A DNA stretch of 64,000 nt from Roseospirillum parvum. GTDB taxonomy: Bacteria > Pseudomonadota > Alphaproteobacteria > Rhodospirillales > Rhodospirillaceae. This document shows, piece by piece, positions 4,702 to 9,528 of this stretch (positions within the stretch are counted from its first letter, which is position 1; every line of letters begins with the position of its first letter). Where the stretch lies: contig NZ_FNCV01000003.1 of the NCBI RefSeq assembly GCF_900100455.1, forward strand, positions 124,001-188,000. Direction: 5' to 3'. The notes beneath the pieces were generated by a model. That model did not search any database, had not been told where the DNA came from, and saw only the letters and a list, made by a program, of their open reading frames with translations. The position numbers were made by a program, and so were the translations under genes.

Positions 4702-6831
<2,130 letters not shown>

Positions 6832-6842
6832 GACCGAGAGCG

Positions 6843-6876
6843 AAAAATCGGGAACCACTTGGGGGTTCCCGATTTT
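6843..6876 (+). terminator. Terminator after diguanylate cyclase gene
   Basis: A 13-bp stem (6843/6844-6855 with 6864-6876, AAAATCGGGAACC and complement) is followed by CTCGTTT. It lies 12 bp after the stop codon. Confidence 0.82.
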
Positions 6877-6905
6877 CTCGTTTAGATCGGCTCTACACCT
6901 AAAAT

Positions 6906-6968
6906 CTAGAGCAGATCGTGCGAAATCTGAAGCGCTCCGCGATTCACATTTCGCACGATCTGCTCTAG
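6906..6968. repeat. Perfect 21-bp inverted repeat beginning with CTAGAGCA
   Basis: The arms at 6906-6926 and 6948-6968 are perfectly complementary and enclose a 21-nt loop containing GATTCAC. The right arm overlaps the stop codon of the minus-strand AEC transporter (TAG at 6967-6965), so the element supplies the stop. The same TAGAGCA start and GATTCAC loop recur after the hook gene at 9392-9508, marking these as members of one dispersed palindromic family. Confidence 0.85.
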
Positions 6969-7942
6969 CCGGCCAGGGCCAGGACCAAACCGGCCACCAG
7001 CGGCATGGAGAGCGCCGCCAGCAGGGTCTGGGCCGAGATCAGGCGCGCCGTCAGCGGCCCGTTGCCGCCCATCTGGCGGGCCAGGATGTAGGCCGAGGCG
7101 GCGCAGGGCAGGCCGCCATAGATGGCGACGGCGACCAGCGCCTCGCCCCGAAGTCCCAGGATCAGGGCCAGGAGCAGCGCGATCAGCGGGCTGAGGATCA
7201 GCTTCAGGGTCGCCGACAGGCCCAGGGCGGGCAGCAGCGCGGAGTCCGGGCGAGGTTCCTCGGGGGCCACCGCCAGCCCGGCGCCGACCGCCATCAGGCC
7301 CAGCGGCAGGGCGGCCCGGCCGATCACCTCCAGCGTTGGCCCGATCACCGGCGGCAGGCCCAGCCCGGACACGTTGAGGGCAATGCCGACGATACAGGCC
7401 AGGATCAGCGGGTTGGTGACGATGCCGACCAGGGTGCGGCGCAGGGCGGCCCGGCGGTCGCCGCCCGGGCCGGGTCGGGTGAGCGACAGCACGGCGACGC
7501 ACAGCACGTTGACCATGGGCACCACCACCGCCACGCAGAGGGCGGTCAGGGTAATGCCGGCGGGGCCCAGCAGGCCCCCGGCGGCGGCCAGCCCGACAAA
7601 GGTGTTGGGCCGGATGGCAGCCTGGAACAGCGCCCCCCGGGCCGGTCCGTCGAGCCGTCGGCCGGGCAGCGGCGGTTCCCCCCAGCGGCGGCCCAGAATC
7701 CAGGCCAGGGCGGCGATGGCCAGGGTGGTCAGGGCGACCGCCAGGCCGACCCGCTGCCACGGCAGGCCGGCCAGATCGGCCCCGGCCAGGTTGGAGATCA
7801 GCAGGGCCGGGAAGGTCACGATGTAGGTCAGCCGCTCCATGGGCGACCACAGGGCGGCCTCGACCAGGGCGGCCTTGCGCAACACGAAGCCGAGCAGAAT
7901 GACCAGGAAGACCGGCGCGATGGCCAGGGTGATGTTCGCCAT
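6965..7942 (-). CDS. AEC family (auxin efflux carrier type) transporter
   Basis: This 325-residue protein has about ten hydrophobic membrane segments and the AEC/malonate-permease pattern. A first half ends in a polar loop, and the second half begins at about residue 170 with the conserved NPLILACIVGIALN helix. Substrates in this family are organic acids or small anions and cannot be predicted here. The ATG at 7942 (MANITLAIAPVFLVILLGFVLRKA) fits the usual AEC N-terminus; a longer reading to 8011 adds a basic, non-conserved stretch. The stop codon is created inside the palindromic repeat. No co-directional neighbour suggests a pathway. Confidence 0.85.
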   Translation of the reverse strand: MANITLAIAPVFLVILLGFVLRKAALVEAALWSPMERLTYIVTFPALLISNLAGADLAGLPWQRVGLAVALTTLAIAALAWILGRRWGEPPLPGRRLDGPARGALFQAAIRPNTFVGLAAAGGLLGPAGITLTALCVAVVVPMVNVLCVAVLSLTRPGPGGDRRAALRRTLVGIVTNPLILACIVGIALNVSGLGLPPVIGPTLEVIGRAALPLGLMAVGAGLAVAPEEPRPDSALLPALGLSATLKLILSPLIALLLALILGLRGEALVAVAIYGGLPCAASAYILARQMGGNGPLTARLISAQTLLAALSMPLVAGLVLALAG

Positions 7943-8106
7943 GGCGGCGATCCTACACCGTGTCGTGGGGATTTGTCGCGGCCTCTGGTGGTTCCGCCGT
8001 GGGGCCGGCACAAACTGCCGGGCGGCGCCGGATGGGGCGGCAAGGATGGCCGGGTCGGGCCTTCCGCGCCAGTCCTAACCCATTGATCCGAAAGGGTGGT
8101 GGGGGC

Positions 8107-8122
8107 TGGCATGGGGTTTGCT
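8107..8122 (+). promoter_or_regulatory. Sigma54-type (-24/-12) promoter for the hook gene
   Basis: TGGCAT-N5-TTGCT (8107-8122) matches the RpoN consensus TGGCAC-N5-TTGCA, with GG and GC exactly 10 nt apart. Transcription would start near 8133, about 38 bp before the hook gene ATG. Sigma54 control of hook and rod genes is well known in several alphaproteobacteria. Confidence 0.65.
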
Positions 8123-8170
8123 GCCCGCTCTGGCGGATAACCTTGTCCCGTTCAGTCGGAGCCCACCGCC

Positions 8171-9394
8171 ATGACCATCTGGGGTGCCTTTGCCAACGCC
8201 TCCATGGGGATGCAGGCCCAGAGCCACGCCCTGGGGCAGATCAGCACCAACGTGGCCAACATGAACACCACCGGCTACAAGAAGACCGAGACCCACTTCC
8301 AGACGGTGCTCTCGGAAAGCACCGGGGGTGGTCGGTTCGACATCTACTCGGCGCAGACCAAGGACTATCGCCGGGTCAGCTACCAGGGGCAGATCCTGGC
8401 CACCAACAGCGCCAAGGACGTGGCCCTCAACGGGCGCGGCATGCTGGTCGTCAACGACGCCTTCGACGGCAGCGGACAGACCTACTACACCCGCGACGGG
8501 GCCTTCTACGAACAGGAAATCGACGGCGATTCCTACCTGATGCAGGGCAACGGCCTGTACGTCATGGGCTGGAGCGCCGACGCCGACGGGGTGATCGACG
8601 CCACCGGCAACCTGGGGGCCATCCGCACCAACACCTTCGATCAGTTGCCCGGCCAGGCGACCTCCAACGTGCGCCTGCAGGCCAACATCGATTCCGGGGC
8701 GACCAAGGCCCAGAACTTCAGCTTCGGGGTCTACGACGACCAGGGCAACGAACAGTCGCTCACCCTGACCTGGACCCCAACCCCCGACGTGCCCAACGAA
8801 TGGACGCTGGAGTTCAGCGCCGCCAACGGCACGGTCAGCGCGCCGACGGCACCGAGCCTGCCGGTGCTCACCTTCGACGGCAACGCCCAGTTGCCCGACA
8901 CGACCGCCCCGGTGACGGTGTCCATCACCTGGGCCGGGGGCGGGTCCAGTTCCATCGCGGTGGATCTGGACGACATGACCCAGTACTCGGGCAAGACGGT
9001 CATCGACGTCATCGAATCGGACGGCTACGCCACCGGTCTGCTGCGCCAGACCCGGTTCGACAACGACGGCGTGCTGTACGGCATCTACAGCAACAACCAG
9101 GCCATTCCCATCGCCCAGTTGGCGGCCGCCAACTTCACCAATCCGGACGGCCTGGAAGCGACCAACGGCAACATGTTCCTGGAAAGCGAATGGTCGGGCG
9201 AGGCCGAGCTGTTCCAGCCCGGCGGCACCGGCCGGCTGGCCTCCATCGAGCCGGCCTCGCTGGAGCAGTCGAACGTCGATCTGGCCGACGAGTTCAGCCG
9301 CATGATCCTGACCCAGAACGCCTATTCGTCGAACGCCACGGTGTTCCGGACGAGCGACGAAATGGTCCAGGAAGCGGCCCAGCTGAAGCGATAG
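8171..9394 (+). CDS. Flagellar hook protein FlgE-like
   Basis: This is a 407-residue axial flagellar protein of the FlgE/FlgF/FlgG family. The N-terminal rod/hook signature (MGMQAQSHALGQISTNVANMNTTGYKKTET) sits at residues 12-41. The C-terminal coiled segment SNVDLADEFSRMILTQNAYSSNATVF is characteristic of hook protein. The length is close to FlgE (about 400 aa) and longer than FlgF/FlgG. Unusually, it stands alone: there is no flgD, flgK or flgL nearby, and the neighbours are an AEC transporter and tyrS. A sigma54-type promoter precedes it and a palindromic element begins at its stop codon. It could be a second hook protein or the sole one located away from the main flagellar cluster. Confidence 0.88.
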   Translation: MTIWGAFANASMGMQAQSHALGQISTNVANMNTTGYKKTETHFQTVLSESTGGGRFDIYSAQTKDYRRVSYQGQILATNSAKDVALNGRGMLVVNDAFDGSGQTYYTRDGAFYEQEIDGDSYLMQGNGLYVMGWSADADGVIDATGNLGAIRTNTFDQLPGQATSNVRLQANIDSGATKAQNFSFGVYDDQGNEQSLTLTWTPTPDVPNEWTLEFSAANGTVSAPTAPSLPVLTFDGNAQLPDTTAPVTVSITWAGGGSSSIAVDLDDMTQYSGKTVIDVIESDGYATGLLRQTRFDNDGVLYGIYSNNQAIPIAQLAAANFTNPDGLEATNGNMFLESEWSGEAELFQPGGTGRLASIEPASLEQSNVDLADEFSRMILTQNAYSSNATVFRTSDEMVQEAAQLKR

Positions 9395-9508
9395 AGCAAA
9401 TCCCGAGCGATCCGGAGCTGATCGGCCAAACCGGATTGCGACGACGATTTGCTTCAATATCAAGAGTCTGGAGCGTGTTGGGTGATTCACAAATCACGCA
9501 ACACGCTC
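9392..9508. repeat. Double-hairpin palindromic element starting at the hook gene stop codon
   Basis: The element starts with the TAG stop of the hook gene (9392-9394). Hairpin one pairs AGCAAATC (9395-9402) with GATTTGCT (9446-9453), with an inner ATCCGG/CCGGAT pair (9410-9415, 9431-9436). Hairpin two pairs GAGCGTGTTG (9471-9480) with CAACACGCTC (9499-9508), with an inner GTGATT/AATCAC. The right half of hairpin two aligns with the right half of the inverted repeat at 6906-6968 through the shared GATTCAC. It may act as a terminator for both hook gene and tyrS. Confidence 0.7.
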
Positions 9509-9528
9509 TTAAGGATTCGCCGCCGGGA

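Follow-up and report, generated by a model that had tools for sequence, protein, structure and literature searches.

Two double hairpins at the ends of genes

The window analyzed here, a 64,000-nucleotide stretch of the Roseospirillum parvum genome, contains two small palindromic elements, designated A and B after the repeat families to which they belong, that abut a GGEDEF-type gene, an AEC transporter gene and flgE. The relevant features, in window coordinates, are as follows.

4822-6831, plus strand: GGEDEF-type gene; its TAG stop (6829-6831) lies at the other end of the A element
6829-6830: TA target-site copy; with the next G it forms the TAG stop of the GGEDEF-type gene
6831-6965, minus strand: family A element, two hairpins; 135 bp between TA copies, with the IS630-left-like end at 6965
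6831-6895, minus strand: hairpin 2 of the A element
6906-6968, minus strand: hairpin 1 of the A element, containing a 21-bp palindrome
6941-6945: GANTC site (GATTC) of the A element, at index 22 from TA, a register conserved in IS630 left ends
6966-6967: second TA target-site copy, within the TAG stop (6967-6965) of the AEC transporter gene
6965-7942, minus strand: AEC/auxin-efflux-carrier family transporter gene; matches TIGR00946 to position 334 of 336, with its natural C-terminus at the element
8171-9394, plus strand: flgE (flagellar hook protein); residues 1-407 match PRK05682.2-2 profile positions 1-420 of 420, with the natural C-terminus at the element
9392-9393: TA target-site copy; with the next G it forms the flgE TAG stop (9392-9394)
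9394-9508, minus strand: family B element, two hairpins (hairpin 2, 9394-9453; linker; hairpin 1, 9471-9508); matches the family B query at 81%
9484-9488: GANTC site (GATTC) of the B element, at index 22 from the hairpin 1 side end
9509-9510: second target dinucleotide position of the B element; reads TT

A previous examination of the letters alone (the sequence-only reading) had described 6906-6968 as a perfect 21-bp inverted repeat and 9392-9508 as a double hairpin, and both structures are real. The 30-nt arms of the former match at 93%, and no shuffled sequence folds as well as its RNA (z ~ -9); the alignment of genomic copies reveals that it is one half of a longer double hairpin (6829-6967), the window copy of which spans 141 bp including flanking bases and matches its family query at 94%. 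Both hairpins of the B element hold as well (fold z ~ -7), and the TT at 9509-9510 is probably a decayed TA copy. The same reading had noted exact stops of two genes on opposite strands and a GATTCAC motif common to both, and these observations stand: the stops are those of the AEC transporter gene (minus strand, 6967-6965) and flgE (plus strand, 9392-9394), and the motif lies in both loops (6941-6947 and 9484-9490). The single A element closes two convergent genes, the GGEDEF-type and the AEC transporter genes, one at each end. Removing the element from 6815-6982 yields a reconstructed empty site, TGGCCCTGGCCGGC-TA-GCTGGCCAGGGCCC, that is an 11/12 palindrome.

Three families of dispersed elements

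The window has five copies of the heptamer TAGAGCA where 1.15 would be expected, and a genome-wide search for the palindrome pattern returned 19+19 matches, with none for the reversed control. The proposal of a small dispersed mobile element is sustained by about 93 family segments in the 3.5-Mb genome. These belong to three related families, A (~139 bp), B (~107 bp) and C (~142 bp), which share the layout TA-GAGC-hairpin 1-GCTC-linker-hairpin 2-GCTC-TA and include many truncated copies and some that are nested or in tandem. Family B relatives differ in the sequence of the hairpin 2 inner stem yet preserve its pairing, 90% of inner pairs being paired, versus 75% when the halves are mixed between copies. 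Units of this hairpin also form head-to-tail arrays of at least two copies (L206 1520-1694; L214 1515-1733; L103/L111), suggesting local amplification. An Rfam search gave no match except a tRNA. A further dispersed palindromic repeat (GGTATGAAAGGGGCTTTGCCCCTTTGAAACCCCACCGGGGG... and relatives; L036, L063 (L011), L017, L314 and L316-L318) frequently lies close to contig ends, and other insertions are nested within it.

Target sites, filled and empty

At the ends of the elements the target bases read TA in 39/56 left and 53/66 right ends, with an outer C in 41/56 and an outer G in 44/66, so that most sites correspond to CTAG. Among two-ended copies, 25/43 have TA on both sides and 2/43 have GA on both sides, and in 16/43 the target dinucleotides no longer match each other. 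A nested insertion is informative in this regard: a copy of the genome's own IS630 transposon (see below) lies within a C element at ATGATT-[TA]IS[TA]-GAGCACGG, and the C element is uninterrupted elsewhere. A preference for palindromic targets did not reach overall significance (254/2000 permutations at 12 bp). Individually, the window site (11/12) and the empty site at L214, a 10/12 palindrome, are striking, and the site of the own IS630 at C30/C8 is also palindromic.

The sequence-only reading had called for a comparison with orthologous gene ends devoid of the element. Orthologous synteny through TyrS provided no locus close enough for empty sites, and the comparisons that follow concern rhizobial RIME elements, with the same ends and layout, rather than the sites of this genome. 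At a ROK-family gene of R. leguminosarum, strain A1 (L259) presents the empty site GTGC-TA-GCCGAG and strain BIHB 1217 (L250) the filled one, GTAC-[TA]GAGC...GCTC[TA]-GCCGAG, and the open reading frame is 1203 bp long in filled and empty strains alike. In Rhizobium sp. BT04 (L253 20086) the treY frame measures 2610 bp with the element and the same in its empty relatives; this is the only case seen in which the stop codon differs between states (TGA empty, TAG filled), and the empty sites read CA instead of TA, which indicates that the insertion was not a clean TA duplication. The comparison therefore bears out TA duplication at the ROK site only and reveals no change in frame length at either locus. 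Given a duplicated TA and unchanged frame lengths, the stop must pre-exist, and the tip G of the element re-makes TAG on either side.

Stop codons and the rarity of CTAG

Stop codons coincide exactly with the element tip at 27 intact ends, in 26 of the 79 elements having an intact end, as judged from a home-made codon-usage caller trained on the window rather than from a published gene finder; stops 1-20 bp outside the ends number only seven. This placement is well above the 12.6% obtained for non-coding TA sites (P=2e-6). In some 460 kb of the genome, coding sequence (408 kb) contains four CTAGs and intergenic sequence 16, a further nine are TAG stops, and 15 fall within elements. Stops thus make up 9/25 (36%) of non-coding CTAGs, a proportion that, though based on 25 sites only, the observed 26/79 fits (P 0.75 binomial, 0.81 Fisher). 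The stop bias of the elements can therefore be ascribed to the distribution of CTAG, which coding sequence all but lacks and which, outside it, is a TAG stop in about one case in three. The tabulation thus upholds the claim that the element is found at gene ends far above random TA sites, but a special preference for stops beyond that for CTAG is not needed. Since the CTAG estimate derives from 25 sites, and family B is also found at TA contexts other than CTAG, a modest additional preference for stops may exist on top of it.

Strong hairpins directly 3' of stops would also be expected of functional terminators or mRNA 3'-end stabilizers selected at gene ends, and the element had been suggested to double as a terminator. 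Sites with a GC stem followed by a T tract, however, are not enriched over shuffled sequences (two terminator-like matches in the region versus 1.4 expected), which lends the suggestion no specific support, and 45/122 intact element ends face the 5' ends of genes. The CTAG distribution, moreover, accounts for the stop bias without selection for function, and we consider a terminator or stabilizer role unlikely.

The sequence-only reading had further proposed that the element supplies or creates the stops, truncating or re-ending genes. The exact coincidence of stop and tip at 27 ends agrees with this, as does treY, whose stop is TGA where the element is missing and TAG where it is present. Against it, ten proteins with stop overlap were scanned, and wherever the family model was clear the protein reached the model C-terminus or stopped a few residues from it:

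nifK, 516/516
TolB, 418/418
PurU, 280/280
FlgE, 420/420
acetoacetyl-CoA reductase, 242/242
RelA/SpoT protein, 702/702

As these proteins end at or near the C-terminus of their family, the element did not shorten them, and the ROK and treY frames are equally long in empty strains. The creation of gene ends by the element is therefore very unlikely and already largely refuted. In this probable nitrogen fixer, the end of the nifK gene lies at a C element tip (L001, C5).

IS630 transposons with the same ends

IS630 transposons with identical TAGAGC ends are present across the Alphaproteobacteria and, as contig-end fragments, in the genome under study. In 7/30 loci of order-level relatives, PF13358 transposase genes lie between TAGAGC ends spaced 1050-1069 bp, as compared to 1.6% of shuffled loci, and a class-wide protein search contributed 20 further well-defined copies. 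Named members of this kind are ISRm2011-2, ISRel6 and ISAzs37. In the genome itself IS630 ends were located at nine places, almost all of them contig ends: four contigs (C35, C30, C23 and C14) carry a left end at their edge and five (C8, C7, C12, C26 and C27) a right end; the right end encodes a typical C-terminus (LGDICDLYTPDECWNYLKHAGYASD). Neither PF13358 nor PF13340 was detected in the readable sequence of the genome, but for IS630 this negative is misleading, because the transposon body lies where short contigs read N and the edges of contigs carry its ends. The own IS630 is consequently known from its ends, which share only TAGAGC and the register of the GANTC site with the hairpin elements. 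Several of the IS630 transposases (L284-L287, L296, L306, L307) are encoded in two overlapping frames with the break at an A run (...YKKN / ...KKTLMASE), suggesting programmed frameshifting.

The hairpins display the attributes of miniature inverted-repeat elements (MITEs) of such a transposon. TA target-site duplication is seen in the ROK filled and empty sites, in the IS630 nested within a C element and in the dinucleotide counts; TAGAGC at both ends and GANTC at index 22 are common with IS630, and one B-type end, TAGAGCGTGTTGCGT, is matched by that of the IS630 in L284; and the elements, 103-140 bp long, harbor no transposase gene. An IS5-like element with GGTTCTG ends was also considered as a mobilizer and rejected, since its ends differ and it merely uses the same CTAG sites. 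This element (TIR GGTTCTGNAC.CATAA; L001 1-98, L223 1-82, L219 1-115 and L224-L229) inserts at CTAG, with several copies at the CTAG of a palindrome, and the target supplies the TAG stop of its transposase frame (...STRLWMRDYESRT).

Dispersed short extragenic palindromes, some of them in tandem units, are also reminiscent of the REP/RAYT type, moved by a Y1 transposase. Palindromes of that type, however, carry a GTAG or CGTC tag at one end and generate no target duplication, whereas the elements described here duplicate TA, have symmetric TAGAGC ends that match those of IS630 and bear no such tag; an origin of this sort is extremely improbable.

We consider it highly likely, instead, that the hairpins are non-autonomous IS630-type MITEs of 103-140 bp, delimited by GAGC...GCTC and a duplicated TA, which insert preferably at CTAG and whose insertion into stop codons is silent. 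They would be moved in trans by an IS630 transposase. The element enters a TA, preferably within CTAG, and the target TA is duplicated at both ends; the tip G together with the duplicated TA then always spells TAG, and insertion at the TA of a stop codon (TAG or TAA, or, as at 6829-6967, a CTAG common to convergent genes) leaves the protein intact. Target choice and survival place about a third of insertions at stops.

GANTC at a fixed register in the left end

The sequence GANTC is the target of the cell-cycle methylase CcrM, and it is contained in the loop motif GATTCAC. Counting from the T of TA, GANTC starts at index 22 in 8/8 IS630 left ends at the order level, the own genome's included, and, in the class-wide draw, in 20/22 left ends and 0/22 right ends, the two exceptions looking like spurious or mis-paired ends. 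ISRm2011-2, ISRel6, ISAzs37 and other alphaproteobacterial copies agree on this register, which 48/56 intact left ends of MITEs keep, as does the ROK element of rhizobia (GAATC). Most IS630 left ends carry two more sites, near 34 and 56, and GANTC density amounts to 25.7/kb in the first 100 bp versus 0.4/kb in the rest. The GATTCAC shared by both window elements is, accordingly, a GANTC methylation site that derives from the IS630 end.

Among the proteins encoded in this genome is one that resembles CcrM and has a RAMA domain, and it seems reasonable to postulate, as an addition to the MITE interpretation, that the site at index 22 is regulatory and that CcrM methylation gates the IS630 left end to the hemimethylated state that follows replication. 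Methylation of the transposase promoter and left terminal repeat would gate transposase expression or end activity, and MITEs would keep GANTC 22 as part of the end. The fixed register, its absence from right ends, its retention in MITEs and the crowding of sites in the first 100 bp all favor such gating. So does the comparison outside the class: no GANTC was found in the left 80 bp of gammaproteobacterial Azotobacter copies of the same subfamily, which have TAGAGC ends, whereas two to four are present in the first 80 bp of four alphaproteobacterial copies whose transposases are 68-70% identical to theirs. On the other hand, within the Alphaproteobacteria the same picture could arise from a transposase contact whose sequence happened to be GANTC, and the control outside them is limited to one genus, Azotobacter, which is not known to carry CcrM. 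We therefore hold gating at index 22 to be evenly poised. By analogy with Dam and IS10, methylation would time transposition to replication. The broader proposition is that the cell cycle gates a whole alphaproteobacterial IS630 subfamily together with its RIME/CIR-like MITEs, CcrM sites at 22, ~34 and ~56 of the transposase-side end coupling transposition to the passing replication fork, with CTAG targeting and the tip G providing for silent stop insertion; it is more tentative and falls slightly short of an even chance.

Relationship to known elements

RIME, the Rhizobium intergenic mosaic element (Osteras et al. 1995, cited in PMC2873474), resembles the elements reported here in having two palindromes and a linker, TAGAGC...GCTCTA ends and an intergenic location, and the window families match its description (~108 bp, two palindromes, intergenic). 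The RIME copies examined here present TA duplication (ROK) and stop overlap (ROK and treY). They differ, however, in internal sequence, and the present host lies outside the rhizobia. With the family B query, blastn against a plasmid collection returned no RIME, only ends and layout being in agreement. A query that we take to be the RIME sequence matched 499 rhizobial-type plasmid records.

The CIR repeats, known from Caulobacter and Brucella (Chen and Shapiro 2003, described in PMC2229807), are likewise ~110 bp long and intergenic, with two stem-loops, a linker, GANTC at the terminal loop and TA ends, all features of the elements reported here; CIR were compared by this description only. RIME and CIR are old orphan repeats, and the same review accounts neither for their movement nor for the origin of the GANTC of CIR, stating for CIR that more is needed to ascertain how it moves. 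No link of RIME or CIR to IS630 was found in the searchable literature. The present results offer a testable answer to both questions, in that such repeats look like IS630 MITEs and their GANTC like the IS630 left end at its fixed register. The elements are thus IS630-type MITEs of the RIME/CIR kind, filed as members of neither named family, and they illustrate how, by combining a rare CTAG target with one terminal base, a transposon may occupy stop codons harmlessly.

The association of a MITE with IS630 is also known from RUP of Streptococcus pneumoniae, a MITE of IS630-Spn1 (PMC2229807) that is ~107 bp long and has IS630-like ends and TA targets, but whose account in that review includes neither a double hairpin with linker nor GANTC. 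ISRm2011-2, ISRel6 and ISAzs37 share with our elements the TAGAGC left ends, the TA target and GANTC at index 22; unlike the MITEs, they are autonomous, ~1.05 kb long and encode a transposase. Finally, the regulation of IS10 by Dam methylation is established (Roberts et al. 1985, cited in PMC10073500), and it too involves a host adenine-methylation site in a transposon end adjoining the transposase gene. The methylase (acting at GATC) and the transposase family are different in that case, and for IS630 and CcrM regulation is only inferred, but the elements described here make it possible to test directly, in a system other than Dam, whether methylation times transposition.
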